From positions 2,790,001 to 2,854,000 of the forward strand of contig NZ_CP051180.1 in the NCBI RefSeq assembly GCF_012295575.1: DNA of 64,000 nucleotides. Reading direction: 5' to 3'. Numbering within the stretch: position 1 is the stretch's first letter; each line of letters opens with the position of its first letter. Below, one piece after another: positions 14,996 through 54,996 of the stretch. The notes under the pieces are model-generated. The model did not search any database and had not been told where the DNA came from. It worked only from the letters and a program-made list of their open reading frames with translations. Both the position numbers and the translations under genes were made by a program. The DNA is from Ferrimonas lipolytica (GTDB taxonomy: Bacteria > Pseudomonadota > Gammaproteobacteria > Enterobacterales > Shewanellaceae).

Positions 14996-15067
14996 GGCTG
15001 TATACCAACTAAGTGTTGTTCTTTCCAATGCTGTTAAAGCACCGGCTAGGATAGTTTTGATTCAAGG
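14996..15067 (+). mobile_element. partial terminal-repeat element, copy A
   Basis: About 72 bases match the left end of the element seen complete at 23712-23992 and 26711-26983: GGCTGTATACCAACTAAGTG, then TTCTTTCCAATGCTGTTAAA and the segment ending TTGATTCAAGGGG. The right part of the element is missing. It abuts the T-tract of the upstream terminator on its left and runs into the hipA fragment on its right. Confidence 0.8.
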
Positions 15068-15245
15068 GGAATGAATCGTGCTGCTGTAGCGTAACGATTG
15101 GCAATTCAACAGATTGGGTCGCAGCATACTCGGGATCAAAGGTGAGAATATTCTTGTTACCGGCGAATCGGGCAACAACCCCAACTCGAACACCATGCAG
15201 ATGCAGTGAGATCCCTTGTACCGGCTCTTGGCGTTTAAGCGTCAT
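15009..15245 (-). pseudogene. truncated HipA N-terminal fragment
   Basis: The first 55 or so of 78 residues look like the N-terminal subdomain of HipA-family kinases (LHLHGVRVGVVARFAGNK, LTFDPEYA, VELPIVTLQ). The kinase domain is absent. The reading frame then runs into copy A of the terminal-repeat element, which supplies the last 20 or so residues and the stop. It overlaps hipB by four bases (ATGA), as in normal hipBA operons. A toxin without its kinase domain cannot phosphorylate a target. Confidence 0.75.
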
Positions 15246-15541
15246 TGCTCTTCGCTCCCTGACTTTCCAAGGATCTGATGGATTAAGTTAGTCGACTCGC
15301 GATGTTTAGTCGTATGGTCGTTACCATTTGAGTTTCCTTTACCTCTCTCAACCAACGTCACGTCGTAGCCTAGAGCGTCGGCCCACGCCATAAAGTTGCT
15401 CAACTTCATGTCATTGCCTTTCTCCATACGGGAAATCTGCTGCTGCTTGAACCCAGCCATGGATTCAAAATCGCCCTGACCCAGCCCCTTTCGCTTCCGG
15501 GCGTGGATCAATACCTTTATGAGCTCGTTGATAGGCGTCAT
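15242..15541 (-). CDS. HipB-like XRE-family antitoxin/repressor
   Basis: A 99-residue helix-turn-helix protein. The segment GQGDFESMAGFKQQQISRME is a typical XRE DNA-binding motif, and the downstream ALGYDVTLVERG resembles HipB-type antitoxins. The start at 15541 is favoured because GGAG lies six bases upstream; an ATG four codons earlier is also open. Its usual partner HipA is truncated, so it may now be only an orphan autorepressor. A large palindrome lies upstream. Confidence 0.8.
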   Translation of the reverse strand: MTPINELIKVLIHARKRKGLGQGDFESMAGFKQQQISRMEKGNDMKLSNFMAWADALGYDVTLVERGKGNSNGNDHTTKHRESTNLIHQILGKSGSEEQ

Positions 15542-15634
15542 TGACGGCTCCATTCATACACCATGCACTTCAGACATCATCATAAAAGTAGTATGTCGAC
15601 AAAAAACAACACTGATATAGTAAAAGCCCATCAA

Positions 15635-15681
15635 AACAACTTATATGTAGTAAAAATGATTTTTACTACATATAAGTTGTT
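15635..15681. promoter_or_regulatory. 47-bp perfect palindrome upstream of hipB
   Basis: Two 23-base arms (left 15635-15657, right 15659-15681) are exact reverse complements around a single G at 15658. The arms contain CTTATATGTAGTAAAAAT. The site lies about 95 bases before the hipB start. It could be an operator for HipB or a strong cruciform/hairpin. Confidence 0.8.
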
Positions 15682-15749
15682 AAATTAAGCCGATACAACA
15701 TTCTGGTTGTATTGATAGACATGTATCAATAATGAGCACTTTGAATACA

Positions 15750-15779
15750 AAGGCGAAGCCAAGAGGCTTCGCCTTTTTC
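15750..15779. terminator. hairpin downstream of the VIT/vWA gene
   Basis: AAAGGCGAAGCC and GGCTTCGCCTTTTT pair around AAGA. It lies just after the stop of the minus-strand VIT/vWA gene. A nearly identical hairpin follows the AAA ATPase at 21715-21747. Confidence 0.75.
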
Positions 15780-15806
15780 ATCATGTAACGGTGCTGAACT
15801 AAGCCT

Positions 15807-18053
15807 TTAAATGGTCAACTCATCAAGCTTGTTGCCGCCTTGCTTGTGGCTGGCTTTAGCGCTGGCCATGGTATTACGGATCGCTTCAATCAAGTGCTCG
15901 CTGACTTCCAGCTCTCGGCAGAGTCGTTTCACCAATCGAGTGACGTGACGACTTAATGGGATACCGCTTTGCACCTCGTTATAAACACTGAGCCAGGCCG
16001 CTACCAGCTGGGCTTCGGTCACCTTACCGGAACGCAGAGACGCCAGCGCATCAACCACCCACGTGACTTCACCCAAGATAAAGAGCTTATCCAGATCCAT
16101 CTGCGGTAGCTGCAGGCTGTTGGTAGAGGTGTACTTGCGGTTTAATGATTCAGCTAAATAACCGATGTGTCGATCAACCGGGGCCTCACACCGTAAGAAT
16201 GGCGTGATATCGAGACATTCACGAGGTTCACCGCGAGATGCAGGTGATGAATACACTACCCCATCGGACGGGATGCAATTAGCATCGTGAGGGGAGTCCA
16301 TAGCTGAAACGACATGCTCGAGCTCTACCGTACCCAATCCACTGAACCCAGCGGGTAATTCGTGTGGCACTGTGCGTAGCTCGGGTAATGGCAGCTCTTG
16401 CTGTTGCTCGTTGTGTTTTACGCAAACGCAATAAGTATGTTCCGTGACTAGCTGGTACTGCAGCGCCAACGCCGTCGCCTCATCTTTTGCCAAAGCACTA
16501 AGCCGAGAATGAGCTGCTAAACGAGCAAGCGTGTCACTGCCTGGTGACCATTCCTGCAATAAAACAGACTGTGAAAGTTTCTCCGCATTGCTGACCTGCT
16601 GGGCGTCGAACTTTGCGGAATCCACGGAGGTATCGTCGAACCACGCAAACTGATGCACGGTGTCATTAAGGAATACGCCATCCAATCGTTCAGGAGAATA
16701 CCGCTTTGGTTTACTCGGGTAGTGAACCTGGCTGTGCGCTAGCGCCGGTTGGGCGATACGCTTAAAGTGCTGCACGATTCGCTTACCCATCTCTTCATTT
16801 GGGGTTACGAACTCGCTGGCACCGCCGGTGCTAGTGGCCAACTCACTGAGCAGAGCTTCACTGACGGCAGTGCCAACGCCAACAGTAAATATCCGCTGCT
16901 CAGATTTGATCGCCTCTTTAATAATGAGACTTTCAGAATCCCAGACCTGACCATCGGTGATCAGTAAGATATCGTTGCCCATGCCTACTGGAGCCTTCAG
17001 CTCAAAGCATGCCTGCAGCGCTGCGCCAAGTTCTGTACCACCAAATGAGGCATTTAACTCAGTCAACAATTGCTCTGCCGCAAGTAGGTTAGTTTCATCG
17101 GCCGGCATACACTCAGGGAACAGTGCTTGATGGTGAAGGCCAAAACGAATGATATTGAAGTAATCGTCTGCACCTAACAGCTTAACGATTTCGCTCAGAG
17201 CCATCCGAGCTTGTCGAATGGAGTCGCCAGACATGGAACCTGAACAGTCTACAAGCAACTTAAAGCAGCGAGGCTCTCGAGTTGTCGCAGCCTGTAACTG
17301 CGGGTAGAAAGACGATAGGGTCACCATTTGTTCGCCATCTTTAGCCCAAAAACCTTCACCTTGATAGTTTGCCGGTTTCTCTACCTCGATGATGAGATCG
17401 CGATCCATGCCGTTCGCCGCCTCTGGCAAGCCTAACTGACAACCTTCCTCATTCATGCTGCGAGTGATGGCATGAGTTGGGCAATGGCATTGGGCATCTG
17501 CGAGCGCACCGGTAATGGATAATTGAAACGAAAATGGATACCGGCAGCTGATGCTGTGCTGCGGAATCTCATGATCAGCCAGCCCAGCGTCAAGAGGGGC
17601 GCCGTAGCGCGGTGCTAATGTGGTAGGCAGATAGAAGCGCAACCGGTCTCCCTGCCACCGATGCAACTGGGCATAACGGAAATGGATGGTGGCCGACTCA
17701 CCCGCCAGCAGGTTACCAACGTTAACGCTGAACAACCCAGGCTGAATCTTTTTCAGCAAAATAGCACTATCACCACTGACGATGGCGTCTTCGTACACCT
17801 CTTCAGCTTTGGTTGCCGCCAACACTTGGCCTTGAAACCGTTTGTCATTGATCTCAACGCTCAATTCCAGCAACGCCGCATCCACTGGCAGCGGAAAGGT
17901 ATAAACCGCTTCAATATTAGTGGGCTCGTTATTCTTATAAATCTGGGTAACAGACACTTCCGACACGATACCTTGTAGAGTCGCATCAATTTTGACTCCT
18001 TTTAGCGGTAGCCCTTCGCCTGTAGTTGCCGACAATCCTATTTCAGCATTCAT
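15807..18053 (-). CDS. VIT and von Willebrand factor A domain protein
   Basis: A 748-residue protein with an N-terminal VIT (vault/inter-alpha-trypsin) domain in about residues 1-130 (IDATLQGIVSEVSVTQIYKN, VYTFPLPVDAAL) and a vWA domain from about 260 to 440. The metal-ion-dependent adhesion site DCSGS lies near residue 268. The C-terminal 250 residues are unassigned. There is no signal peptide, so it is probably cytoplasmic. It starts ten bases after the merR-like gene and likely shares its transcript. The family function in bacteria is poorly known. Confidence 0.88.
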   Translation of the reverse strand: MNAEIGLSATTGEGLPLKGVKIDATLQGIVSEVSVTQIYKNNEPTNIEAVYTFPLPVDAALLELSVEINDKRFQGQVLAATKAEEVYEDAIVSGDSAILLKKIQPGLFSVNVGNLLAGESATIHFRYAQLHRWQGDRLRFYLPTTLAPRYGAPLDAGLADHEIPQHSISCRYPFSFQLSITGALADAQCHCPTHAITRSMNEEGCQLGLPEAANGMDRDLIIEVEKPANYQGEGFWAKDGEQMVTLSSFYPQLQAATTREPRCFKLLVDCSGSMSGDSIRQARMALSEIVKLLGADDYFNIIRFGLHHQALFPECMPADETNLLAAEQLLTELNASFGGTELGAALQACFELKAPVGMGNDILLITDGQVWDSESLIIKEAIKSEQRIFTVGVGTAVSEALLSELATSTGGASEFVTPNEEMGKRIVQHFKRIAQPALAHSQVHYPSKPKRYSPERLDGVFLNDTVHQFAWFDDTSVDSAKFDAQQVSNAEKLSQSVLLQEWSPGSDTLARLAAHSRLSALAKDEATALALQYQLVTEHTYCVCVKHNEQQQELPLPELRTVPHELPAGFSGLGTVELEHVVSAMDSPHDANCIPSDGVVYSSPASRGEPRECLDITPFLRCEAPVDRHIGYLAESLNRKYTSTNSLQLPQMDLDKLFILGEVTWVVDALASLRSGKVTEAQLVAAWLSVYNEVQSGIPLSRHVTRLVKRLCRELEVSEHLIEAIRNTMASAKASHKQGGNKLDELTI

Positions 18054-18062
18054 GATGTTTCC

Positions 18063-18479
18063 TTACTGCTTAGCGATGATCCGTTCATACAACTCAATCA
18101 CGTCCATTGAGAGTTGTTTGGCTTGCTGCGGGGTTAACCCCGCCTTACTTGGGTTAAGAGTGAGCGATACCCCTTCATCGATATGGATGTGGCTGCACAC
18201 CTCAATATCGCCGGGCTGCTGCCGTTTGAGTGGTGGCAACGGCTTGCTGTCGCCTTCATCGAACAGCAGCTCTTTGATCCGCTCCAGCGACAAACCGGCA
18301 TCCTGCCATTTGCGGATCTCAAGCAAACGTTCAAGGTGTGTCTGGGTGTAATAGGCCCCTCGGCCACTGCCCTCTGGCGCTGCCAACAGCGACTTTTGGA
18401 TATAGAACCGCACGGTGCGCGTTGGCAACTCAACCAACTGGCTTAACTCATTTAAGGTGTAGCGATTTGTCGTTTTCAT
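18063..18479 (-). CDS. MerR-family transcriptional regulator
   Basis: A 138-residue regulator with a MerR-type winged helix at the N-terminus: YTLNELSQLVELPTRTVRFY, then GRGAYYTQTHLERLLEIRKW and a short coiled coil. The effector end (SHIHIDEGVSLTLNPSKAGL) has no cysteine-rich metal site. The start at 18479 fits the domain; an ATG at 18488 or a TTG at 18515 are alternatives. It is directly upstream of the VIT/vWA gene and likely controls it. Confidence 0.8.
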   Translation of the reverse strand: MKTTNRYTLNELSQLVELPTRTVRFYIQKSLLAAPEGSGRGAYYTQTHLERLLEIRKWQDAGLSLERIKELLFDEGDSKPLPPLKRQQPGDIEVCSHIHIDEGVSLTLNPSKAGLTPQQAKQLSMDVIELYERIIAKQ

Positions 18480-18581
18480 GACAGCCATACTAGACACCAC
18501 TAGTGACAAGATCAACTGTTACGTTTATATTGTTTCAACAGGAGGCTCAATGGACAGAGCCAAAGCCAGTAAGGAAGCCCA

Positions 18582-19003
18582 ATGTCAAAACCTTGGAGCA
18601 AGCTACAGAAAGCGCTGTATAACATCATTGACCCGAGTATCAGCTTTCAGATTCAATGCCGTGCTTATCGTATGAACAGCCAACACGGCGACAGTGACCT
18701 ACCTCGATATTGGATATCCCTTAAAAAGAGATCATCTGAGACTACCCAAAGCATTTTGGTCGGCGGTGTGAATTGGACTGTTACCCATACATATCCGATG
18801 TACCGGACATCTCAATATTAATCCGAGACTACATCGACACTCCCGGGGCACAACTGCTCACCAAAGCGTTCGATGACCCATGGCGGCTGGTTGATATTCT
18901 GCGCTGCGCCGATCGTCGGCTGTCTCTTAAGCAGCTAATGAAAATGCCAGCCTTAACTGAGCCCTCCCCCGCAGCAATGGTGCTCGCTGCCAGGCTGCGG
19001 TAA
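18582..19003 (+). pseudogene. frameshifted small conserved protein (SF0329-like, tentative)
   Basis: An ATG at 18582 with AGGAAG before it opens [18 protein letters not shown] and runs to [11 protein letters not shown]. The natural continuation is in another frame: EII, stop, [16 protein letters not shown], then [18 protein letters not shown] and ADRRLSLKQLMKM. Two lesions are visible: a one-base change in the A5 run at 18723-18727 and a TGA at 18737-18739 where related proteins, as I recall them, have tryptophan (EIIWD). The family has no known function to me. Confidence 0.55.
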
Positions 19004-19146
19004 CAACGTTGGCCAGCCAGCGCTCCAAGCCTGGTGCTGCCGCAAAGCATCGGGCTTCGCGCTAAATTGATGGAATAATATGAAAAAACCAACACCAGAA
19101 AACTGGATCTACGGCTTCCATTGAATCATTCAATAGGAGCAACGCT

Positions 19147-19380
19147 TTGTCTCAGCACAACAATCGTAGAGACCGCGATGGCCGTAGCCGCCTCAAGCGA
19201 AACTACCGAAACTCTGGCCCGCACTGGCTAGCCGAGCCCACATGGTTTCGAGTATTGGTAACGATTCGCCCCCGGCGCCAACAAAACCGGCGCTTCCGTG
19301 TCGCAATACTTAAAGGCCAAGGCCCCGCAGGGATAGCTTGGCCACTGAGGAACCACAAGCCGCATGAGCACTGCTGGTAA
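19147..19380 (+). CDS. small very basic hypothetical protein, 77 aa
   Basis: A 77-residue arginine-rich protein starting at TTG, with AGGAG seven bases upstream. It contains RDGRSRLKRNYRNSGPHWL, then RPRRQQNRRF and a C-terminal NHKPHEHCW. I recall small proteins in accessory regions ending in a KPH-E/x-YYW pattern and the core resembles these, but no function is known to me. It is flanked by a pseudogene and an AAA ATPase. Confidence 0.5.
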   Translation: MSQHNNRRDRDGRSRLKRNYRNSGPHWLAEPTWFRVLVTIRPRRQQNRRFRVAILKGQGPAGIAWPLRNHKPHEHCW

Positions 19381-19595
19381 GGCGCGGTGACGGCAAGTGG
19401 CGCGGTATGAAAAACAAACACAGATAAAGACCATTGATCATGGAATAAACTACTGATTATCATAATAATTAATGTTAATCTGCTTTACCCTTAATACGAA
19501 CGCATGGCTATCAAGTAGGCAAAATGGAAGAACGTATAACTCATAAAAATAGGTGACCGCTCGTTGTAATCTAACAAAAGAGCAGGTCATACATT

Positions 19596-19632
19596 CGGCG
19601 CGATGCGCCGCACTTGCTGGCCTTTAGCCAGC
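19596..19632 (+). promoter_or_regulatory. two stacked hairpins in the AAA ATPase leader
   Basis: CGGCGC-GAT-GCGCCG (19596-19610) and TGCTGGC-CTTTA-GCCAGCA (19614-19632) are two perfect hairpins three bases apart. The second ends ten bases before the GGAG ribosome site of the downstream gene. No T-run follows, so translation control or transcript protection is more likely than termination. Confidence 0.6.
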
Positions 19633-19652
19633 ATATGTCTATGGAGTAATAT

Positions 19653-21695: not shown

Positions 21696-21714
21696 ACATT
21701 ATTAACAAGCACTA

Positions 21715-22714: not shown

Positions 22715-23608
22715 TTATCGCTCCGCTTTGGCCTGATATAGGCCTTCATCGGCGGCATTAATCCAATCACTCGGGTTGCGAAACTGGTAGCTCAACGGCG
22801 CCAAGCCCACCGACAGTGACACCTCAAAGCCCAGTGCCTGGACTGCTTGCTGTTCCACCGCAGCAGCAAAACGCTGAAAAATCTGTTGCGCATCCTCAGT
22901 CTCGGTATTGGGCAGCAATAGGGTGAACTCATCACCGCCCCAGCGACAGGCCAGATCTTGCTGGCGTATGTTCTGCTTGAGCAAATCGGCAACAAACTTA
23001 AGTGCCTTATCGCCCGCCACATGGCCGTGGTTATCGTTGATCTGTTTAAAGCCGTTAAAGTCCATGATCATTAGGGTCGACTGCCCCCCCTGCTGATGGC
23101 TTAATCCAAGCTCCTGCTCCACCTGGCCCAACCAAGTGGTTTTCTCTAACAGTCCGGTAAAGCTGTCGAGCCGGGCTTGCTGTTTAAGCCGGCTGTTGGC
23201 CTCGTGCAGCAGTTGGTTTTCGTTGATCAGCGCATTGATCCCATACACCAAGGCCGCGCTGTACTCGTTGCCTTCACCGTCACTGATCTCGTGGTACAGA
23301 TCAACGTCGCCCAGTTTCATCCAAGGCTCAGCCAACAAGACACTGTTCGGCTCTTCCCAGAGCTTGCCCAGCTTGGACTTCACAATTTTGCGCTCCAATT
23401 TATTGACGACCCATTGCTCGGCTCGACGCTTTAACAGCTCCTTGGGCGTTTTACCGATGGCCTGCACAGCGGCTATGCCGGTATACCGTGCCAACGGCTG
23501 ATTCCAGCTGATCAGGCGTTGTTTGCTATCCAGCAGCATAAGCCCGACCTGCAACTCATTCGCCAGATGATCGAACAGGTTGCGGTTTAGGGTGATGACA
23601 TCAGACAT
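22715..23608 (-). CDS. diguanylate cyclase with PAS domain
   Basis: A 297-residue cytoplasmic signalling protein. Residues 10-75 form a PAS-like sensor (GLMLLDSKQRLISWNQPLAR). A linker then leads to a GGDEF domain beginning at LDSFTGLLEKTTWL, with the active-site loop RWGGDEFTLLLP intact, so it should make cyclic di-GMP. An I-site RxxD is not evident just before it. The ATG at 23608 has GGAGA at a good distance; a longer frame to 23698 is open but lacks one. Confidence 0.88.
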   Translation of the reverse strand: MSDVITLNRNLFDHLANELQVGLMLLDSKQRLISWNQPLARYTGIAAVQAIGKTPKELLKRRAEQWVVNKLERKIVKSKLGKLWEEPNSVLLAEPWMKLGDVDLYHEISDGEGNEYSAALVYGINALINENQLLHEANSRLKQQARLDSFTGLLEKTTWLGQVEQELGLSHQQGGQSTLMIMDFNGFKQINDNHGHVAGDKALKFVADLLKQNIRQQDLACRWGGDEFTLLLPNTETEDAQQIFQRFAAAVEQQAVQALGFEVSLSVGLAPLSYQFRNPSDWINAADEGLYQAKAER

Positions 23609-23711
23609 ACGTCTCTCCGTTACTCTTAGTGTTGATAACAGCTCAGTGTCGAGCGCTAGGGTTATCTTCGAGCAAGAGAGCGGACACGGAGTGTCCACTG
23701 AGGGATAAAAA

Positions 23712-23992
23712 GGCTGTGTGCCAACTGAGTGTTATTCTTTCCAATGCTGTTAAAGCACCGGCTAGGCGAGTTTTGATACAAGGGGAAAGCGCTAACTACC
23801 GCCGTTGTTCTTCTGCCGCATTGGAGCAGTTCAGCGAAGCGTTTTGGACTGAGACCTAAGGCAAAGGGGGCAAAGCTCCCCCTAATGCATACAAGAATGT
23901 ACCATCGCCACCACGACATAGTCCCCTAAAACACCGCAATCCGTGAAGCCGAAGGGGTAAGATAAACTTCAACAGCTAACTACGACACAGCC
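23712..23992 (+). mobile_element. terminal-repeat element (MITE-like), copy B
   Basis: A 281-bp non-coding element with ends GGCTGTGT and ACACAGCC. Copies C and D share most of its length, including CTTTCCAATGCTGTTAAAGC, GCCGCATTGGAGCAG, and GATAAACTTCAACAGCTAAC near the right end. The right end abuts seven As that are the T-tract, read on the minus strand, of the terminator at 24001-24023. Flanks GATAAAAA and TAAAAAAA are similar but not identical. No transposase is encoded. Confidence 0.85.
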
Positions 23993-24023
23993 TAAAAAAA
24001 GGCCAGCCCATCAATGGACTGGC
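23993..24023 (-). terminator. terminator of the membrane-protein pair
   Basis: On the minus strand GCCAGTCCA-TTGA-TGGGCTGGC forms a 9-bp stem with one G-T pair, followed by C and seven Ts. It lies 21 bases after the stop of the 477-residue gene. Confidence 0.85.
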
Positions 24024-24043
24024 ATCATTTATCGAACAATCAG

Positions 24044-25477
24044 CTAAGCCAATATAAACTCATCAAGCTCGGCGTGAGTACGGATAAGTGCTGACTCCTT
24101 AACGCCATAAGCGCGCGCCAACTCCAAGCTGGTTTCAACTAGGCGTTGATTATTGGCAGGATCAAATGCAGCCTGAGTTAGTGCCCCTAACTTGGCGAAG
24201 GCGTTCTCTATCTGCGCAATCAGGTCCCGATATTTTGCATCCAGCTGAGCAATGAAAGCCTTCATCTCCGCCGCGGCTTGCTGAGCTAAGGCTTTTGTCT
24301 TGCCGGTGGCAAAGTCAGCCAACAACTTACCTGCCATCGAGCCAATCACCGCCCCGACTACTGGAATTGGGATCAGAGCTTGACCTGCGACTGAAGCCAC
24401 CCCGACAATCGCCGAATCGGCGCAGACGGCTAACCCCATCTCCACAAATTGCTCGCCATCGATGCGACCTTGCTGGTAGTCCAGTGCTAATGAGCCCACA
24501 CCTTTTACCGCGCTGACTACCGATGCCGCCAGCGGTGCGCTCATACTTGCGTAGTTAGTTAAACCATAAATAGCGGCACCGGTCACCGCACCACCGGCTG
24601 TGCCTTTGGCGGTTTCAATGCCTATTTCACGCCACTCGTCACGGCTCAAATCGCCCTTAAACGGGTTCTTTCCTTCGCGATATTTAGCATAGAGCTGTGT
24701 ACCAAAACAGATCCCACCTGCCACCGCACCAGCAACCACCGCAACTTGCGCGCCTTCTTGCCAAGAGGCTTGATGCTGCTGCTGGATTTCAGCGCTTTGT
24801 TGTTCATGCCGTTGTGCTAAGTCCGCATCATGACCCTCCAACGTATTGTGCACCTGCCCTTGCTGCACCTCGCTGTAATCAGACAGTCCAGGTTTCACCA
24901 CCTCAGTAAAAGGCCTACCACTTTGCGCTTCAATTTCGTCAATCTTGCTGCGGATGGCTGAAACGGTGCGGCTATGCATCCCCTCTGGCACGTCGCCATT
25001 CATCACTTTTTCGATGTTGGCGTAATGATCCTTGGGGATGTGATAAAACGAGCCATCGCGGCCAAAATCCTGATACTTGTCCATGTGGTCAAGTACATGA
25101 GTTAGGTTATTACTGGCTCCATTAATGAATTTCGACTGCACCTGAGCACCATCAAGCAGGTAGTCTTCTGGCGCCAGTCGACCCACTCCTTCAAAAGTGC
25201 CCGGCGTCGCTTCGCCATCCATAATAGCCCGGGCGTTGCGCACGCCGATCTCGACCTGTTCAGCAATCTCGCCATGCTTAGTCAATTCACTGCCTAAGAT
25301 GTTCTCAGGCGATCCAACAAATTGACGCACCTGCTCAACCTGTTGCTGCGCCTGTGCAAACGCAGTTTGCTGAGCATTCAACGCCTGCTGTTCGGCCTGT
25401 TGCCGCAACAAATTGGCGGCTTCTGCCGCCTGGCCTACCGCTTGATCGCGAGCAGCCTTAGTCGACTGCCGTTCCAT
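24044..25477 (-). CDS. 477-aa protein with coiled coils and glycine-rich hydrophobic core
   Basis: I do not recognise a named family. Residues 1-80 are rich in Gln, Ala and Glu and likely helical. Residues 80-250 are soluble and hydrophilic (HVLDHMDKYQDFGRDGSFYH). Residues 255-400 alternate glycine-rich and hydrophobic stretches (VAVVAGAVAGGICFG, GTAGGAVTGAAIYGLTNY, IPIPVVGAVIGSMAGKLL), which could insert in a membrane. The C-terminus is helical. There is no signal peptide. It overlaps the upstream 283-residue gene by one base (TAATG), so the two are probably made together. Confidence 0.8.
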   Translation of the reverse strand: MERQSTKAARDQAVGQAAEAANLLRQQAEQQALNAQQTAFAQAQQQVEQVRQFVGSPENILGSELTKHGEIAEQVEIGVRNARAIMDGEATPGTFEGVGRLAPEDYLLDGAQVQSKFINGASNNLTHVLDHMDKYQDFGRDGSFYHIPKDHYANIEKVMNGDVPEGMHSRTVSAIRSKIDEIEAQSGRPFTEVVKPGLSDYSEVQQGQVHNTLEGHDADLAQRHEQQSAEIQQQHQASWQEGAQVAVVAGAVAGGICFGTQLYAKYREGKNPFKGDLSRDEWREIGIETAKGTAGGAVTGAAIYGLTNYASMSAPLAASVVSAVKGVGSLALDYQQGRIDGEQFVEMGLAVCADSAIVGVASVAGQALIPIPVVGAVIGSMAGKLLADFATGKTKALAQQAAAEMKAFIAQLDAKYRDLIAQIENAFAKLGALTQAAFDPANNQRLVETSLELARAYGVKESALIRTHAELDEFILA

Positions 25478-26328
25478 TAGGCAGAAACGCGCTTATTAAG
25501 CAGCTCAGATAATGCGCGGATGTGGTTTACCAACGCGGTTAACTGATCTTTTTGCTCTGCATTAAACTGGCTGTAGTCCTTTGGTGCGTCGTTGCTTAGG
25601 CTAAACAACAGATCATTCACCCCTTTGACATGGGATTCAGTCAGCTCAAGCAGCCCTTTGATTTCACGCTTAGCCGCGTTAAGGGCACGGTTGTAGGTTT
25701 CTACTTCTTTGCGCTTGTTATTGGCTTCTTCGGCAATTTCACGGTTTTTCTTACGCATGAAGAAACTGCCGCCAAGCACCGATGTGGCCCCAATTGCCCA
25801 TCCAATAGGTCCAGCTAGGCCTAGTAGCAACTGTCCACCTGCCATGCCAGCGCCACCAGCTGTTAGCGCTCCCCCGCCAAGCCAAGCCAGCGCAGCATTA
25901 GTAGCCGCTGCACCACCTAATGAGGCTATCGCAGTGCCAGTAGAAGCGGTGCCAAACGTCGTTGCCAGCGCCATTGCCGCGGTAGGCGCAAACGCTGCAA
26001 CGCCAGCACCAACGGCAACGCCACCCGCCGCACCTGACTTGGCTTTAAAGTCGGCACTGCTGGCCTCCAACTCGATTTGCTGCAGCGATTCATTGAAGCA
26101 GCGAAACTCCGCTTTGTACTCGGTCACGCTCTTGTCGAAAGACTTCGGCGTATTAGCCATGCCATTGATGTAATCTTCAACCTGCTGGATCACCTCTTTG
26201 CCACTGTCGATCCGCAGGTTCATCAGCTTCTCGGACTGCTTCATCACGTAATCAACGCGGCTGGTATAACTTTCGAAGCTCTTCTCTAGCTTCGCCAATG
26301 CTTCTTTTTTCATGTCGTTATTGAACAT
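25477..26328 (-). CDS. 283-aa protein with central glycine/alanine-rich hydrophobic region
   Basis: I do not recognise a named family. Residues 1-95 are a charged helical region (MKKEALAKLEKSFESYTSRV). Residues 98-190 form a long Gly/Ala-rich hydrophobic region (GVAVGAGVAAFAPTAAMAL, GMAGGQLLLGLAGPIGWAIG), followed by MRKKNREIAEEANNKRKEVE, a highly charged coiled coil. This helical-hydrophobic-helical layout recalls pore-forming or membrane-remodelling proteins, but that is inference only. It is first of a two-gene unit; the WYL regulator gene lies upstream on the same strand, separated by an element copy. Confidence 0.8.
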   Translation of the reverse strand: MFNNDMKKEALAKLEKSFESYTSRVDYVMKQSEKLMNLRIDSGKEVIQQVEDYINGMANTPKSFDKSVTEYKAEFRCFNESLQQIELEASSADFKAKSGAAGGVAVGAGVAAFAPTAAMALATTFGTASTGTAIASLGGAAATNAALAWLGGGALTAGGAGMAGGQLLLGLAGPIGWAIGATSVLGGSFFMRKKNREIAEEANNKRKEVETYNRALNAAKREIKGLLELTESHVKGVNDLLFSLSNDAPKDYSQFNAEQKDQLTALVNHIRALSELLNKRVSA

Positions 26329-26702
26329 TGCACTTACCTCTTAATGGCAATGGTGATTTGAACGAGGGTTGTATCTCATCTGCCCGTCCAGAACTTTGAA
26401 CGACATCCATTTCATTGAAAAAAAATGAAATTAACACGATGTTCTGACTTGTTTGTGGGCAAGCAAATCTTGCGACAGAGAGGTGGACATGCAGCGTCCA
26501 TAGATAAATGAGCTTTCGAGGCGAGGCCCAGAAATACAGATGCCACCGCATAACTCAACGAGTTGTGCAGTGGCATCACTGTAATGATTTATAAAAGGAA
26601 CTAAACGGGCGGTTTGCCGTCAGGATCGACGAATACCTTGCTCGGCTTAAGGCAAGAGTGTTACATCAAAATCGGCTCATCACGCGTGTTCACCCTATGG
26701 CA

Positions 26703-26710
26703 TTTTCTTT
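26703..26710. repeat. target-site duplication of copy C, left
   Basis: TTTTCTTT directly before GGCTG of copy C; repeated exactly at 26984-26991 directly after its right end. Confidence 0.85.
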
Positions 26711-26983
26711 GGCTGTATAGCAACTAAGTGTTGTTCTTCCAATACTGTTCACCGGCTAGGCGAGCTCCGATACAAGGGGTTAAGCACTGCCGTCGTTGAT
26801 CTTCTGCCGCATTGGAGCAGTCCAATAAAGCATTTTGGACTGCGACCTAAGGCAAAAGGGGCGAAGCTCCCCCTAATGGATACAAGAATGTGCCGTCGCC
26901 ACCGCGACATCCTCCCCTAAAGCACCGCAATCGGTACAGCCCAAGGCTTAAGATAAACTTCAACAGCTAACTACGACACAGCC
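26711..26983 (+). mobile_element. terminal-repeat element (MITE-like), copy C
   Basis: A 273-bp copy with ends GGCTGTAT and ACACAGCC, flanked by an exact 8-bp duplication, TTTTCTTT. This defines the element's boundaries. The right end overlaps the 3' end of the WYL regulator gene and supplies its stop codon. No coding capacity of its own. Confidence 0.92.
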
Positions 26984-27933
26984 TTTTCTTTCGGGCTCCA
27001 ACTGGCCGCCGGCTCAAGTTGGGGCTCGGCTAAATAGCGTTGTAGATCATCCATTAAGGCATCACGCAATGCCTTCGGTGCCAATACCTTAATCCGCGGC
27101 AACCAATGCTTGATGATCGGCAGTATTTCGACTTCAGCACTATAGGCACAATCGATAATGTAGCCCCCTCGAAAGGTCACAAATCCGGATTGCTGGTTGG
27201 GTAACAGCTGCTTACGCTCGAAATAGTGAATGGCGTCGTTCGCGACCCAAATCTTGGCCGGAGTCGTCTTACCAAAGTAGATGGTGTCTCTGGCCTGGAT
27301 CCGACTGAGCACCTCTGGCACAAGGGGAAAACATGCCCCCACGACCAACCGCTCTAAGCCTTCAAGCCGAAATGGTTTGATAATCTCCTGATGGAAGCAG
27401 ACCACGTAATATGCCGACTCATAACGGCGAATGAAGTAGGGCTGCACACCTTCATAATGCTTCTTTTGCCCATCCGACCGACGATAGCTGAAGCTCAGCG
27501 TTTGGCGTCGCTCAATCGCATCAAATAGTGCGATAAACCGCTTATCTTGCTCCAGCGTTTGCGCTGCCTTCGGCTTCGCCACATCGGTAATACTGTCGAC
27601 AAAAGCGCGGTGTTTTTCCAGCTGGCGCTGCCGCACGGTCTCGCTGTGCTTATCCAACTCGACCCGCTCCAGTGCCAACCTGCGCAGTCGCTGGTATTCT
27701 GACAACCCGCCCAAATCAGCCAACTGCGCTACTTGTTTGTGCAGCGGGTTGGTCATCACCGTGCCAGCCGATGTTTTGGTGGTACCCAGTACCGCCAGTG
27801 CAGCGAAGTCACGCCGAATGGTTTTCTCGTCTACATTAAACTGCGCGGCCAGAGCATGTTTCTCAAGGCATTGGCCATCGAGCAACATCTTAGCGAGTTG
27901 AGCAATACGGATATTGGGGGGGATTTTTGACAT
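26971..27933 (-). CDS. WYL-domain transcriptional regulator
   Basis: A 320-residue regulator. The N-terminus is a DeoR-type winged helix (IRIAQLAKMLLDG, FNVDEKTIRRDFAAL). The WYL domain, a ligand-sensing module common in regulators of defence and stress genes, is in about residues 140-220 (YFIRRYESAYYVVCFHQ, LEGLERLVVG), followed by a WCX-like C-terminus. The ATG at 27933 is preferred over one 11 codons upstream because the domain starts there. The last codons, KAVS and stop, come from element copy C. It is upstream of and co-oriented with the two-gene membrane pair. Confidence 0.88.
   Translation of the reverse strand: MSKIPPNIRIAQLAKMLLDGQCLEKHALAAQFNVDEKTIRRDFAALAVLGTTKTSAGTVMTNPLHKQVAQLADLGGLSEYQRLRRLALERVELDKHSETVRQRQLEKHRAFVDSITDVAKPKAAQTLEQDKRFIALFDAIERRQTLSFSYRRSDGQKKHYEGVQPYFIRRYESAYYVVCFHQEIIKPFRLEGLERLVVGACFPLVPEVLSRIQARDTIYFGKTTPAKIWVANDAIHYFERKQLLPNQQSGFVTFRGGYIIDCAYSAEVEILPIIKHWLPRIKVLAPKALRDALMDDLQRYLAEPQLEPAASWSPKEKAVS
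26984..26991. repeat. target-site duplication of copy C, right
   Basis: TTTTCTTT directly after ACACAGCC, identical to 26703-26710. Confidence 0.85.
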
Positions 27934-28219
27934 AAGACAATCACTATAAGCAAGATAAAACAGCATGTTGTGGCGGTATCACACCGCTACGATATTGTAA
28001 CGCATCGTCCTCAATAGTCCGTTACCTAGCCCGCGATAGTGGATTTTTATCTAGCCACAAAAGTGCCCTACCATCCCAGCAACAGCAGCCGCAATTTCAC
28101 CTCAGAAATCTGCAGCCCCATAGCTTCATAGCCCATATCAAATTACACACAGAGCAATCATATTGAGCCAATAATTCGAGCCAGTAAAAGTGAGCACCAC
28201 ACTAAGCTCTGTTCTTTAG

Positions 28220-42603: not shown

Positions 42604-42674
42604 GAAGGGGCACTCGTGAGTGACCTTTTCTAAATTTAACTTCGAAATACGGTCGCACATGTGCGCCCCTACGA
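42604..42674. repeat. inverted pair of REP-like palindromes
   Basis: AAGGGGCACTCGTGAGTGACC (42605-42625) and GGTCGCACATGTGCGCCCCT (42651-42670) face each other about 25 bases apart. Both belong to the AGGGGCRC-palindrome-GACC family of the arrays after recQ, and together form a BIME-like unit. Confidence 0.75.
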
Positions 42675-42698
42675 TGCCATTCGTCGGCATGCGCTTCG

Positions 42699-48829: not shown

Positions 48830-48958
48830 TTGCCACTGCAAAGCCAACTCTTTGGCAGCCATATTACTCATAACTTTGGCCCGAGCGCGCAATACAGCGG
48901 ACGCAGAACATCACTACCAATACTGATATAATTCGGCTTTTACTCTTGTGGACGCACT

Positions 48959-49417: not shown

Positions 49418-49496
49418 CCCAGTTGGTTACTACTAATGATTGTTTTCGGGGGCTGTGCTGCTAACTTGAACTAAAACCGATTTGACGGAGCTAACC

Positions 49497-49679
49497 ATGC
49501 GTTATCTACTGCCGCTCGTTTGTTTGATCGCTTCGCTCACCTTCTACGGCATGGGCATGCACTCTGGCTTCATCATTCTTCTGATCGCTGGCGTCGCGCT
49601 GGAGATTGGCTTCTGGTTTGGGTTAGCCCGTCTGTTGCCGAGCAACCAGCCAACGTCGAAAAGCCCGACAAAAACATAG
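49497..49679 (+). CDS. small two-helix membrane protein, 60 aa
   Basis: Starts at ATG 49497 with ACGGAG seven bases upstream. It has two hydrophobic segments (YLLPLVCLIASLTFYGMGM, FIILLIAGVALEIGFWFGLA) and a polar tail SNQPTSKSPTKT. Not recognised; likely an inner-membrane protein. Confidence 0.65.
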   Translation: MRYLLPLVCLIASLTFYGMGMHSGFIILLIAGVALEIGFWFGLARLLPSNQPTSKSPTKT

Positions 49680-49799
49680 TTGCAATAATGGCCGCATAAA
49701 AAGTCACGCTTGCCGCATCTTTCGTCACTCAAAGACCTGTTCTTTGCATCCTTATGCTGACAGCGCTACTCTGGCGTTTTTCCTCATTAAGTCGCTTCA

Positions 49800-50456
49800 G
49801 TGATCAACGAAATATCCATTCTGACTACCCTAGCGGTAGTGCATTTAGTCGCTCTCGCTAGTCCTGGACCAGACTTTGCTCTGGTTGTCCAAGCTGCCGG
49901 TAAACATGGCCGCAAAGCCGGTCTAGCCATCGCCTTAGGGATCTCCCTCGCCATTTTGCTGCATGCAGTATTTGCCATTACTGGGGTGTCGGTATTGATT
50001 CAACAACTGCCAGCGCTCGGCGTAGCGTTAAAAGTGGCTGGTGGTTGTTACCTGCTGTACTTGGGGATTGGCGCGCTGAAAACCGTGCCCGGTCGATTAC
50101 GGCAAGGTGATGGACCATTACTAAAGGGGAGCGCTGACAGCCTCAACATTAAGCAAGCCACCATCAAGGGATTTGTTACAAATCTATTAAACCCAAAGGC
50201 CTTGGTATTCTTCTTGAGCCTATTAACCAGCTTAGTGCCAACGCAGATGTCGATGGCAGGCAAAGGCGCAGCTATTGGGATTCTGTGGGGGTTGTCGTTT
50301 GCATGGTTTGCACTGCTCTCTTATCTCCTCACCGGCAAGCGCATGCAGCAGAAACTGCAAGGCATTGCGGTGTGGATTGACGCGCTGTGCGGCACGGTCT
50401 TTACCTTGGTTGGTGGGATTATTCTAGGCAGTGTACTGATGGCTACTATTGGTTAA
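49800..50456 (+). CDS. LysE/RhtB-family amino-acid exporter
   Basis: A 218-residue inner-membrane protein with about six membrane segments. The N-terminal VALASPGPDFALVVQAAGKH and KGFVTNLLNPKALVFFLSLL are diagnostic for the LysE/RhtB family, which exports amino acids such as threonine or homoserine lactone. The start is a GTG at 49800. Substrate unknown. Convergent with the pspB-like pair. Confidence 0.9.
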   Translation: MINEISILTTLAVVHLVALASPGPDFALVVQAAGKHGRKAGLAIALGISLAILLHAVFAITGVSVLIQQLPALGVALKVAGGCYLLYLGIGALKTVPGRLRQGDGPLLKGSADSLNIKQATIKGFVTNLLNPKALVFFLSLLTSLVPTQMSMAGKGAAIGILWGLSFAWFALLSYLLTGKRMQQKLQGIAVWIDALCGTVFTLVGGIILGSVLMATIG

Positions 50457-50466
50457 CTCCCCCGGT

Positions 50467-50766
50467 TTAAAGCTTGCGGATCTGTTGCTCTAGTTCAAAG
50501 CCACTATCAGTGACGATCCGCTCTAACACTTCGACTCGCTCTGCCAGCTTTTTATTATGCTGCCGTAGCTCAGCAAGCTCTTTGGTTAGCTCATCGGGCC
50601 CAGTACCATCGCCGGACATGCTAATGTCGCCAACACCAAACCATTTGTCCCAAAGATTGGCGCGGCCACTCTTTATCTTTAGCTGCGACTTACGGTAATC
50701 GAGCCAAACCGTGAACGATAAAAAACCAAACACCAGTAATAATGTAAAAACGCCACCGATCTCCAT
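50467..50766 (-). CDS. PspB-like membrane protein, 99 aa
   Basis: One N-terminal membrane segment (GGVFTLLLVFGFLSFTVWL), a polar linker, then a C-terminal leucine-zipper helix ELRQHNKKLAERVEVLERIV ending in SGFELEQQIRKL. This is the layout of phage-shock protein B. No pspA or pspC is nearby. It is a paralogue of the next gene, sharing the ERVEVLERIVTD segment. Confidence 0.7.
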   Translation of the reverse strand: MEIGGVFTLLLVFGFLSFTVWLDYRKSQLKIKSGRANLWDKWFGVGDISMSGDGTGPDELTKELAELRQHNKKLAERVEVLERIVTDSGFELEQQIRKL

Positions 50767-50776
50767 TGTTGCTCTC

Positions 50777-51016
50777 CTACCCTAACTTCTGAAACTGTTG
50801 CTGCAGATCATAGTTGCCATCGGTAACTATGCGTTCCAACACCTCCACCCGCTCCATCAGCTGTTCATTATGGCTTTCAAGCTGAGCTAAACGCTGTTCG
50901 AGATCGGTATTTTGTTTGTTGGCGCGCGAGCGATTTCGCTCCTTCATAATCTGCGGAATAACCCCCATCACCGTTGAAATCGCTACTATCACAACAATCG
51001 CTGTCCAAAATTCCAT
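50777..51016 (-). CDS. PspB-like membrane protein, 79 aa
   Basis: A shorter paralogue of the preceding gene and closer in length to E. coli PspB (74 residues). A membrane segment (FWTAIVVIVAISTVMGVIPQ) leads to a zipper helix with ERVEVLERIVTD and a QQQFQKL end. The two genes lie ten bases apart and look like a tandem duplication with divergence in the linker. Confidence 0.7.
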   Translation of the reverse strand: MEFWTAIVVIVAISTVMGVIPQIMKERNRSRANKQNTDLEQRLAQLESHNEQLMERVEVLERIVTDGNYDLQQQFQKLG

Positions 51017-51252
51017 ACCCGTTTCTCCTATCGATTAACCCTCAAACATCGTAGCTCGAGGGGAGGGTGTCAAGTTCAGCTACTGGATGGGCCTCAATGA
51101 CACCACAAATGCACATTGTTACTAAAATGTAAGCAAAGAACAGGCCAATGCAAAATATTCAACGCTGACGCTGTTATTGCGCAGATACCAACGTCGATAG
51201 GTAGTAAAAATAGCCGATAAGTGGCGAAAGTGACGGAATGCCGTAAGGCGTG

Positions 51253-52101
51253 CTAGAGCTGATGACGCCTAAGGTAAGTGCTGAGATCGACCCCGAGCCA
51301 AATCAGGGTTGGAGTGAGCATATCGGCCCATTGTTGCCGATGCGGTTCGCCCAGATAGGGCTGTGCGACACTGGGGCGGGTAAGCCCAAACTGGCGCTGC
51401 CCCAACTGGCGATAGTCCTGTAATGGCGACAGATCGTAATCCGCCAGCGCAGCGTCGATAAATTGCTCCAATGGCCTTTTCGACCACTGCTTTAATGCGC
51501 CGAAGTCCTGCAGTAATGGATACAACACCGGTGTAGTCCAATGTTGCCAATCAGGCTGGGCCTGAATCAAACCGATATTGCGCAGATGCAATTGCGCCCA
51601 CAGCTCTTGCTCATCAGCGCCTTCTCGCAGCAGATGCCAATAGAGATAGAGATCCGCCAACACTTCGCGGTTCCAGTGCTGCGGCCAATTGTGTGGTTGT
51701 AACCTAGCTAACCAGTGCGAGTGTTGTGTCGCAACATGCCCTATCTCGTGGTAGTAGGTGGAGCGATAGTTTCTAAGAGAGGGGCGTTCGTACAGCGTTT
51801 CATCCAGCAACACCAAGTGATTACGTTGCAGCGTTGTCGGGTTCAATAAGATTAACGCGTCGTGCTCTGCCAGCAGAGTCACTCCCCCTTGCCCCTTAAC
51901 TGCGCGGCGCATCGAGCCATAATAATCCCCGGGCCACAGTTGAGTTAGCACCTGTTGCCACTCAAGACTGAGCTGGCACTGCTGTAACTGATCTAAGCGG
52001 CACATTTGATGAGCGGGGATCGCTTGGCCAAGTGAAGGCAGGAGGGCCAGCAAAGCGGCTGGCCATAATAGCATTGTGAAGCGCTTCCTTGCGCTTACCA
52101 T
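51253..52101 (-). CDS. secreted protein with HExxH-type motif
   Basis: A 282-residue protein with a signal peptide (MLLWPAALLALLPSLGQA, cleavage near AIPA). It contains STYYHEIGHVATQHSHW; the HEIGH is the zinc-binding core of many metallopeptidases, with a possible third ligand downstream. The family is not recognised. It begins one base after the hldE stop and so is probably co-transcribed with hldE, although no functional link is obvious. Confidence 0.7.
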   Translation of the reverse strand: MVSARKRFTMLLWPAALLALLPSLGQAIPAHQMCRLDQLQQCQLSLEWQQVLTQLWPGDYYGSMRRAVKGQGGVTLLAEHDALILLNPTTLQRNHLVLLDETLYERPSLRNYRSTYYHEIGHVATQHSHWLARLQPHNWPQHWNREVLADLYLYWHLLREGADEQELWAQLHLRNIGLIQAQPDWQHWTTPVLYPLLQDFGALKQWSKRPLEQFIDAALADYDLSPLQDYRQLGQRQFGLTRPSVAQPYLGEPHRQQWADMLTPTLIWLGVDLSTYLRRHQL

Positions 52102-52102
52102 A

Positions 52103-53533
52103 TCAGTCCTGAGAACGAATGGTTTTGATGATTGCCGAGGTAGAGCAACCATCTTCAAAGCCAAGGATTTTCACCTCACCACCGTTATCTAGCACTTCCC
52201 GATGACCTGCGATCTGCTCCACTTCGTAATCTCCCCCCTTCACCAGCATATCCGGAAGGGTTTGGGCTATCAGGCGTTGTGGCGTATCTTCGGCAAACGG
52301 TACCACCCAATCTACCGCCCCCAATGCCGCCAGAACCGCCATGCGACGATCGACGCTGTTGACTGGGCGGCCATCGCCTTTTAAACGACGCACTGAGTCG
52401 TCGTCATTCACTGCGACAATCAACCGGTCACCAAGCTTGCGCGCCTGCGCCAAATAAGAGACATGACCAGCATGCAGGATATCGAAACAGCCGTTGGTCA
52501 TTACTACGGTTTCACCACGAGCTTTGGCCTCCGCGACAGCCAGCTGCAGTTGGCTTTCGTTAACCACGCCGAAGCCTGATTCATCGTGCATGTCCGACAC
52601 CATCGCCGCTACTTCAATCGCCGACACCGTTGAGGTGCCAAGCTTGCCCACCACAACCGAGGCCGCCGCATTCGCTAAGGCACAGGCTTGATCCAGCTCC
52701 GCACCAGAAGACAACGCCGTAGCCAGAGTAGAGATAACCGTATCACCGGCTCCGGTAACATCGTAAACCTCACGGGCCATTGCTGGTAAGTGCAGCTCTT
52801 TGTGGCCAGGACGCAGTAAGGTCATGCCCTTCTCAGAACGGGTGATTAGCAGCGCTTCGAAGTCGTACTGTTCAATCAATGCCAAGCCTTTGTTGACCAG
52901 GTCCGCCTCATCGGCCACTTTGCCAACAACCAGTTCAAACTCAGACATGTTCGGCGTTAGCAGGGTCGCACCGCGGTACTTTTCAAAGCTGCCGCCTTTA
53001 GGGTCGATAAGCACTGGTACCGATGCAGCACGAGCCAGTTGGATTAAATCCTGTACTTGGGCTAGCGCACCTTTGGCGTAATCGGACAATACCATCACTT
53101 TATTGGGAGCGAGATTTTTCTCGGTGGCCGCTTTCAGTGGTGCCGTGGCTTCTAGGCCAAAGTCCTCTTCGAAATCGAGGCGCAATAACTGCTGGTTGCG
53201 AGACAACACTCTCAGCTTAGTAATGGTTGGTGCGTTGGCAACTTCGACCAGCTGAGGTTCAACCCCAAGGCCGGTTAAACTGGCTTTCAGTACTTGTGCG
53301 GCTTCATCAGCGCCAACTAAGCCTACTAGTTGCGCTTGCCCGCCAAGTGCAGCAACGTTTAATGCCACGTTCGCCGCGCCGCCAGGACGGTCTTCAGTTT
53401 GGTCTACTTTAACCACTGGAACTGGGGCTTCAGGAGAGATACGACCGGTTGGTCCTACCCAATAACGGTCGAGCATCACATCACCAACCACCAATACCTG
53501 AGCCTGTTCAAAGGCCGACAGGGCTACTTTCAT
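52103..53533 (-). CDS. hldE: bifunctional heptose-7-phosphate kinase/adenylyltransferase
   Basis: A 476-residue enzyme of ADP-heptose synthesis for the lipopolysaccharide core. Residues 1-320 are a ribokinase-fold kinase ([37 protein letters not shown]). Residues 345-476 are the adenylyltransferase with [18 protein letters not shown], including the HxGH motif. Length matches E. coli HldE (477). The ATG at 53533 ([10 protein letters not shown]) matches the E. coli start; a GTG two codons earlier is open. Confidence 0.95.
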
Positions 53534-53760
53534 CGCCACACTCTTTTAGCTATAACTGATTAATTCTTCAGTTTATCACAGCAGCAATGAGTAACTAGCC
53601 CATATTGCATTGCCGCGATCACTGAAGCGGCATACATTGCTCACAAGCTTGCACTTCAGCTCTACGTCGTCAATTGCATCAACATGGTGATTTTCGCTAT
53701 AGTTCCGCTTTACGCCATGGCATCTCCAGCCCATTTTTCTGCCACTAAAATCGGTCAAAC

Positions 53761-54684
53761 ATGATTACAGAAGCTCAATTTGAACGCCGCTTACTCCATC
53801 CAAAGTTTTGGCTGCTATGGGCCGGGGTCGGTTTACTCAAGCTGCTGGTAAAACTGCCACTGTCGACCCAAGTAAGTTTGGGGCAACGAATTGGCCGTGG
53901 CTTTAAAAAATTTCAACCTAAGCGTGTTAAGACCGTGCAGCGCAATATTGAGCGCTGCTTTCCGCAGATGTCTGCGACGGAACAACAACAGCTACTGGAT
54001 GCCAACTTTGACGAGATCGGCATGGCATTATTTGATACCGGTAACGCTTGGTTCTGGAGCGATGAGCGGATTCAACAGCATATGGAGATCGAAGGTGATG
54101 AACACCTGCGAGCCGCTCAAGATGCCGGCCACGGGGTTATTCTGCTGGCGTCCCACTGTTTAATGCTCGAGCCCGGTGCTCGCGTGTTTGGCCAGATGCA
54201 TCAAGGGGTTGGTGTCTACCGCCCCAATAAGAACCCACTACTTGAGTATCTACAGAGCGCCGGGCGCTTGCGCTCCAATAAGGGCCTCATTAAGAAAAAA
54301 GAGGTGCGGCAGATGGTGAAGGCGCTGCGTAAAGGCGAAGTGCTGTGGTACACCCAAGATCAAGACGCCGGCGGTCGCGGCGTGTTTGCCAACTTCTTTG
54401 GGTTGCGCTGCTCCACTGCCCCCGGTGCGCCAGCGCTGGCGAAAATGGGTAAGGCGCAAGTGCTGCCGTTCTTTGTTGAACGCAAAGCCGATGCCAGCGG
54501 CTATCGAATTAAGATGCACCCGCCGTTAACCGATTTCCCAAGTGGCGATGACCAAGCGGATGTTCAACGGGGTAATGACGAGACAGAGAAGCTGGTACGG
54601 ATGCGCCCAGAACAATATATGTGGCTGCACCGCCGTTTTAAAACCCAAGAGGGAACCCGCGATAAAACTGAGTTTTATCGTTAA
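53761..54684 (+). CDS. lipid A biosynthesis acyltransferase, LpxL-like
   Basis: A 307-residue inner-membrane acyltransferase that adds a secondary acyl chain to lipid A. An N-terminal hydrophobic anchor (FWLLWAGVGLLKLLVKLPL) precedes the catalytic motif SHCLMLEPG (H-x4-E), followed by GVYRPNKNPLLE and QDQDAGGRGVFANFFG. The pattern suits the LpxL/LpxM/LpxP group; which acyl chain is added cannot be told. It is divergent from hldE, another lipopolysaccharide gene. Confidence 0.9.
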   Translation: MITEAQFERRLLHPKFWLLWAGVGLLKLLVKLPLSTQVSLGQRIGRGFKKFQPKRVKTVQRNIERCFPQMSATEQQQLLDANFDEIGMALFDTGNAWFWSDERIQQHMEIEGDEHLRAAQDAGHGVILLASHCLMLEPGARVFGQMHQGVGVYRPNKNPLLEYLQSAGRLRSNKGLIKKKEVRQMVKALRKGEVLWYTQDQDAGGRGVFANFFGLRCSTAPGAPALAKMGKAQVLPFFVERKADASGYRIKMHPPLTDFPSGDDQADVQRGNDETEKLVRMRPEQYMWLHRRFKTQEGTRDKTEFYR

Positions 54685-54707
54685 TCTTGGCTATAGCTAA
54701 TACCGAC

Positions 54708-54738
54708 AAAAGGTCTGCTTACTCGCAGGCCTTTTTGG
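54708..54738 (+). terminator. terminator of the lpxL-like gene
   Basis: AAAAGGTCTGC-TTACTC-GCAGGCCTTTTT, one G-T pair in the stem. Element copy D starts at the end of its T-tract. Confidence 0.88.
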
Positions 54739-54996
54739 GGCTGTGTCGTAGTTAGCTGTTGAAGTTTATCTTAAGCCTTTGGCTTCACCGATTTCGGTGC
54801 TTTGAGGGGACAATGTCGCGGTGGCGACGGCACATTCTTGTATGCATTAGGGAAAGCTCTGCCCCCCTTTGCAATCCCCCTTTGCCTTAGGTCGCAGCCC
54901 AAAACGCTTCGCTGGACTGCTCCAATGCGGCAGCAGATCAACGGCGGTAGGGCTTTAACTGCATTGGAAAGAACAACTCTTAATTGGTACACAGCC
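54739..54996 (-). mobile_element. terminal-repeat element (MITE-like), copy D
   Basis: A 258-bp copy in the opposite orientation to copies A-C, with ends GGCTGTGT and ACACAGCC. Its reverse complement follows copies B and C through most of its length (for example GCCGCATTGGAGCAGTCCAG and GATAAACTTCAACAGCTAAC), with a deletion in the left third. Flanks CTTTTTGG and TTTTTGAT share TTTTTG but are not an exact duplication. Confidence 0.88.

Follow-up and report, generated by a model that had tools for sequence, protein, structure and literature searches.

Insertion of mobile elements at transcription terminators is known from the group IIC (class C) introns, which use terminator motifs. These introns are retroelements with a ribozyme and a reverse transcriptase, and they possess neither inverted ends nor target site duplications (TSDs). 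Insertion sequences (ISs) of the IS1595 family, which a clade described below resembles in these features (its elements are ~1.02-1.03 kb long), have a transposase matching NF033547/PF12762, an 8-bp TSD and terminal inverted repeats (TIRs) mostly starting with GG. In Beta- and Gammaproteobacteria, IS1595 is reported to be enriched in the intervals between co-directional genes and at distances of 500-550 bp from genes (PMC9208149), a pattern that gives no indication of terminator targeting by the family as a whole. No report of IS1595 or MITE (miniature inverted-repeat transposable element) insertion into terminators was found in the literature searched; the founding description of IS1595 and the IS databases were outside this search, and an earlier notice is possible there. 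Here we describe a non-coding MITE in a window of 64,000 nucleotides from Ferrimonas lipolytica (positions 2790001-2854000 of the complete 4.13-Mb genome). Our findings showed that the association of this MITE with predicted terminators is real and genome-wide.

The original prediction had proposed that the repeat is a transposable-like element. This was borne out by its TSDs, by its IS-like ends and by the number of its right ends: a 23-bp right-end pattern, allowed up to three mismatches, gave 184 matches (106+78) in the genome, against 1 (0+1) for a reversed control pattern. The family model has 292 positions, and the consensus, ~292 bp long, could not accommodate a transposase gene. We searched 777 kb of sampled DNA with this model, consisting of the window, the surroundings of 100 of the 184 right-end places, further places and twenty evenly stepped 20-kb stretches. 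nhmmer gave 172 matches, which were chained into 150 elements; both ends were present in 119 of these, and the other 31 were partial. The evenly spaced 400-kb sample held 32 elements (weak remnants counted), which scales to ~330 genome-wide; copies and remnants in this one genome probably number several hundred. Weak partial matches were present in 4 of 40 genomes of genus and family relatives, and at the 10 weak-match loci checked for ends no full copy with a TSD was recovered.

The MITE insertions carry 8-bp TSDs. When the ends were fixed at their nominal positions, the flanks matched at 8/8 positions in 38 of the 119 two-ended copies and at 7/8 or better in 63, compared with 0.4% and 2.3% of 5000 mispaired flanks. 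When a slack of +/-3 bp was allowed at the ends, these numbers rose to 64 and 96 of 119, compared with 2.6% and 14% of mispaired flanks. A repeat found beside terminators could also be a REP- or SPRITE-like cassette with a function in regulation or termination that is kept there for its RNA structure, and the consensus does fold (-101.4 kcal/mol) better than 200 shuffles (z -2.96). We nevertheless regard this explanation as extremely improbable, because the repeat has TSDs and ends shared with ISs, varies in length from 104 to 319 bp with truncated and tandem copies also present, lies off terminators in more than half of its copies, and matched no Rfam family in positions 23600-27100 of the window with E values of up to 0.5 allowed. 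At one tandem locus (G000:C1:909391-910300, L104) the copies stand head-to-tail with one 8-bp TTTTATTT between them, an arrangement that amplification of the element together with its duplication would give.

We called a terminator where a stem of -8 kcal/mol or lower runs directly into a T-tract, and we scored an insertion as lying in a terminator when its 8-bp site overlapped the T-tract by at least 4 bases. Scoring by hairpins only had been dropped, since 30-49% of controls were positive at -6 to -8 kcal/mol. By the adopted rule, 52 of the 119 MITE insertions overall, 49 of the 108 with a TSD of at least 6/8, and 24 of the 64 with a perfect TSD lay in predicted terminator T-tracts, while only 2700 of 85426 intergenic positions (3.2%) did so. 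In the evenly spaced 400-kb sample, the number was 8 of 22 (confidence interval 17-59%; p=2e-7 against 3.2%, and p=0.03 against the 17.8% given by the target motif described below). When each insertion was compared with identical intergenic 8-mers, 42 of 94 were at terminators and 20.6 were expected; among those with an A or T run of at least 5, the figures were 31 of 39 and 14.0. This 8-mer comparison is close to the test that the original prediction had proposed, and it came out in its favor; an excess was also present for related ISs (22 of 29, see below). It had also named, as a result that would speak against it, a majority of copies away from terminators; this is literally and narrowly the case (59 of 108), yet the excess is strong.

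The insertions are also placed unevenly with respect to genes. They are closer to gene 3' ends than intergenic positions are (median 51 vs 192 bp), and convergent regions are over-represented among them (40% vs 17% intergenic). Sixteen of the 108 sites overlap called genes, and at least 7 of the 108 are no more than 8 bp from a called gene 3' end (e.g. L058, L059, L053, L096), so that the 8-bp site touches or overlaps the stop codon. The placement near gene ends and in convergent regions would be expected if survivorship only were at work, that is, if the element inserted nearly at random in AT-rich DNA and terminators were the least harmful places. Separately, one copy (G000:C1:245441, L013) has its site, TAATTTAA, not in a T-tail but, by eye, in the loop between inverted-repeat arms that are followed by Ts.

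The base composition of the insertion sites speaks against near-random insertion. Base profiles of the 54 non-terminator MITE insertions and of 27 insertions of the IS1595 clade described below both had the form of a GC flank, eight A or T bases (W8) and a GC flank. In the non-terminator MITE targets, positions 1-8 are A/T-rich, the first usually being C or T and the last seldom C, and G+C-rich bases extend for ~3 positions on each side; this is the same target as in the terminator insertions. Preferences that span the TSD and 3-4 bp on each side would not be yielded by random insertion.

We then considered the position of the insertions within terminators. A base-preference matrix was trained on the 54 non-terminator MITE insertions only. 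For stem-to-TSD offsets of -2 to 3 at terminators, we observed 3, 7, 13, 11, 9 and 6 insertions, and the matrix expects 3.2, 5.4, 11.6, 12.6, 8.6 and 6.2. The register at terminators is thus explained by a matrix obtained from insertions elsewhere. Hairpin strength did not differ significantly between the 49 occupied terminators (median -14.8 kcal/mol) and 299 empty ones (median -13.6 kcal/mol, p=0.14), and the element was oriented without bias relative to the terminator (24 vs 25). When intergenic tracts that have GC flanks and a run of at least 5 A or T were collected, 175 of them were empty, and 101 of these 175 were terminator tails.

From these results we think it likely that the MITE is moved in trans by a DDE transposase of the IS1595 family, and that the GC-flanked W8 target of the clade concerned coincides with the T-tails of terminators. 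The transposase would make staggered insertions, 8 bp apart, at a short A/T tract that has G+C-rich bases on both sides, roughly GCCC/W8/GGCC, strand transfer occurring at the two AT/GC junctions. Terminator T-tails would be a main source of such sites outside genes, because in them the T-tract directly follows a G+C stem; the element would thus land at terminators far above chance. As the 8 bp are duplicated, the terminator would keep its T-tail, and the insertion would be nearly harmless and be retained. The MITE with its TSDs and IS1595-like ends, the excess at predicted terminators, the target motif and the contrast with sister elements are observations, whereas from them we infer transposition in trans, the readout of the W8/GC target by the protein, the preserved function of the terminator and the role of selection.

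The relatives of the MITE that encode a transposase show where this target preference belongs. Ferrimonas futtsuensis carries an intact IS with ends similar to those of the MITE and with the TSD CTTTTTTG; terminators are present at both left-flank contig ends, and in G008, of the same genus, the IS and its flanks are identical to those of the F. futtsuensis loci. Its transposase scored 185 bits with NF033547 (cut-off 75) and 42.9 bits with PF12762 (cut-off 27). Autonomous IS1595 partners carry 8-bp target duplications, and 10-16 of the 16 terminal bases of their TIRs match in the rows we kept. The end-finder gave doubtful or no ends at several IS1595 loci, and 61 rows were kept, from which L151 and L159 (second ends of counted insertions), L279 (the same insertion as L278) and L230 (only 19 bases of left flank) were dropped, leaving 57. 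L253, a plasmid copy annotated as 'IS1595-like element ISAchd1 family', and L267 had ends off register and terminator-like flanks, and they were left out of the counts.

We split the 57 insertions by hand, with the labels known, into 29 of one clade and 28 of its sisters. Fifty-four of these assignments follow a tree of the transposases; L216, L217 and L189 were assigned by similarity. In the tree of 54 transposases a branch supported at 100/99 separates the terminator clade from the rest, and 20 of the 26 rows of the clade are terminator insertions. The terminator label itself does not fall on one side of a branch but changes 8 times (at least 6 are forced), compared with a mean of 15.0 after shuffling. 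When each insertion was counted once, 22 of 29 clade insertions and 1 of 28 sister insertions were in terminators (p=1e-8), the 29 including two frameshifted copies of G011 and a decayed copy of the F. lipolytica genome. With one vote per distinct protein, the numbers were 18 of 25 and 0 of 18. The clade members contrary to the trend are L251, L256, L258, L235, L262, L243 and L189, the last from the F. lipolytica genome itself.

CTG and CAG flanks were both present in 11 of the 28 sister insertions, and target choice therefore differs between related IS1595 clades. In the sister elements L161-L170, L266-L277, L150, L250 and L285, the target is often palindromic, with CTG before and CAG after the 8-bp duplication, and differs in this from the target of the terminator clade. 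The contrast between clade and sisters, both scored by the same caller, speaks against survivorship. In the genome G893, too, a terminator holds the clade copy, but it holds just 1 of 7 distinct sister insertions (of 9 listed, one was a near-duplicate and 7 others were scored). We therefore judge survivorship by itself to be very unlikely, and it is already disfavoured by these data.

Within the clade, all five IS copies of the complete genome G011, of the same genus, are in terminators (two of them are the frameshifted ones), as are 5 of 5 in G285 and 1 of 1 in G040; other members of the genus of G285 and Aeromonas plasmids are mostly alike. Background sites having the same 8-mers as these insertions were in terminators in 24 of 50 cases in G011 and 37 of 60 in G285, and thus the 8-mer alone accounts for much of the pattern in these two genomes. 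The 8-mer-matched probability of 5/5 was 0.027 for G011 and 0.007 for G285 with all sites, and 0.044 and 0.066 with intergenic sites; the matched test for G285 is weak, as TTTCTTAT and its complement ATAAGAAA have only 2 background sites, none of them intergenic.

In the F. lipolytica genome, the sole match to PF12762 is a decayed transposase (28.4 bits). This decayed IS1595 copy sits between GGCTGTGTCTTAATTAGCTGTTGCA and CAACAGTTAACTCAAACACAGCC, with a TSD of 7/8, and its TIRs are closely similar to the MITE ends. Compared with the IS ends, the right 23-39 bp of the MITE are 79-92% identical and the left 23 bp are 74-83% identical; that is, the ends are similar but not identical. Because a decayed IS1595 copy with such ends exists in the same genome, the MITE was probably mobilised by a transposase of this family, as judged from sequence similarity. 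A second IS1595 copy in this genome (L222:1457-1895, 439 bp, without matching flanks) is internally deleted, and it is a possible intermediate toward the MITE.

A different explanation is that the transposase recognizes the terminator itself. What it reads could be a hairpin or cruciform in the DNA, the hairpin of the nascent RNA, or an RNA polymerase paused in the T-tract. Several of our results weigh against the coincidence of a GC-flanked W8 target with T-tails as a full account. The matrix expects 17.8% of the insertions to be at terminators, and 45% were observed; for sites no more than 80 bp from a gene 3' end, the expectation is 32.6%, and 42 of 75 were observed (p=3e-5). A logistic regression gave terminators an odds ratio of 31 when taken alone, 5.9 with the matrix and 3.7 with tract and flank terms, and it was still 2.4 (confidence interval 1.6-5.4) after gene context was also added. 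Of the run-of-5 tracts with GC on at least one side, 22 of the 27 that carry an insertion had a hairpin, compared with 224 of the 540 empty ones (p=7e-5); of those with GC on both sides, 13 of 15 inserted tracts had one, compared with 101 of 175 empty ones (p=0.03). All ten insertions in G011 and G285 are at terminators, although the same 8-mers are there in about half of the background. Moreover, the terminators are predictions, and gene calling relied on a simple script based on hexamers. Finally, no intact transposase of the IS1595-clade kind was found in the F. lipolytica genome, and mobilisation in trans therefore rests on the ends and the TSDs. The remaining odds ratio, the hairpin-rich inserted tracts, the ten IS insertions and the 8-mer-matched excess of long runs given above are what recognition of the structure would predict.

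On the other side, the majority of MITE insertions use the same W8/GC target although no terminator is predicted at them. As described above, the register follows sequence, occupied and empty terminators show no significant difference in hairpin strength, and there is no orientation bias. Among tracts with GC on both sides that lie within 60 bp of gene ends, a hairpin was present in 11 of 12 inserted and 68 of 88 empty cases, a difference that is not significant in this small sample (p=0.45). We consider recognition of the terminator itself unlikely. Non-terminator insertions share the target, the register is predicted, hairpin strength does not differ significantly, and adjustment lowers the odds ratio from 31 to 2.4; sequence therefore seems a better candidate for the cause than the structure of the terminator. 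Taken together, the data favour a short sequence target supplied by terminators, with retention at gene ends, over recognition of the structure; a roughly twofold residual is not accounted for in this way and may reflect the structure. The original prediction, which had suggested recognition of a T-tract or of the termination structure, is thus partly supported: recognition of the structure is not established, and a smaller excess at hairpins is left after adjustment.

The copies in the window illustrate these findings. The four copies announced by the original prediction are all in place and belong to one family according to the family model, and three of them abut a hairpin followed by a T-tract, as it had said. 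The first is a truncated MITE with the left end only (model 1-80), at 14996-15075 on the plus strand by nhmmer and sequence, so that it runs to ~15075 and not to 15067. It abuts a plus-strand predicted terminator at 14963-14993 (stem 14963-14987, T-tract 14988-14993, fold -15.9 kcal/mol), upstream of which is an open reading frame (ORF) at 14188-14913 that resembles an ABC transporter ATPase. The second, a complete 281-bp MITE at 23712-23992 (plus), abuts with its right end a minus-strand predicted terminator at 23994-24023 (stem 24002-24023, T-tract 23994-24000, -14.8 kcal/mol). Another complete copy, of ~258 bp, is on the minus strand at 54739-54996; its target duplication was read as CCTTTTTG, and it abuts a plus-strand predicted terminator at 54711-54736 (stem 54711-54732, T-tract 54732-54736, -12.5 to -13.4 kcal/mol) downstream of an acyltransferase-like ORF at 53761-54684. 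The complete copies were delimited by the family model and their ends.

The remaining copy, 273 bp at 26711-26983 (plus), is away from terminators by a fold check. It lies in TTTTCTTT, as had been stated, and this is an exact 8-bp duplication (left 26703-26710, right 26984-26991, plus strand). What had not been stated is that a minus-strand ORF at 26971-27966, which looks like a regulator gene, extends with its 3' end into this copy, its reading frame terminating on a stop codon within the MITE. The window further contains a 44-bp tandem repeat array at 4046-5027 with the core CTCGTAGGGGCGCAC..GTGCGACCG, a lone inverted and diverged copy of which is found 38 kb off at 42636-42681.

These results point to a simple route by which a transposon could reach safe sites: its target motif coincides with terminator T-tails, so that the gene is unbroken and the terminator is seemingly kept. 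Since related transposases use either terminator T-tracts or CTG/CAG-flanked sites, target choice in IS1595 becomes testable, and it could be mapped to residues. The results also call for caution, because a genomic feature may supply a short motif, and an association with the feature can then stem for the most part from that motif.

Compared with known systems, the terminator clade differs from many sister elements of IS1595 in its target flanks. MITEAba12 and other IS-derived MITEs resemble the present MITE in being short and non-coding and in having the ends of a resident IS, TSDs and AT-rich targets; MITEAba12 differs in its 9-bp TSD and its length of ~113 bp, and no terminator preference was found in the part of the report available to us (PMC6382973). 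Elements of the TnGBS/ISLre2/ISKra4 type are likewise DDE transposons aimed at a transcription signal (PMC3942029), but they belong to a Mutator-like superfamily and insert upstream of sigma-A promoters instead of at terminators. This IS1595 clade occurs in Ferrimonas and a second genus of the same family, on Aeromonas plasmids and in further relatives. We think it unlikely that terminators are its programmed landing site, with a stem, cruciform or paused polymerase read beyond the letters of the DNA; such a clade would be a DNA-transposon counterpart of group IIC introns. The elements described here differ from those introns in being DDE transposons, with ends that are inverted and an 8-bp TSD that spans the T-tract.

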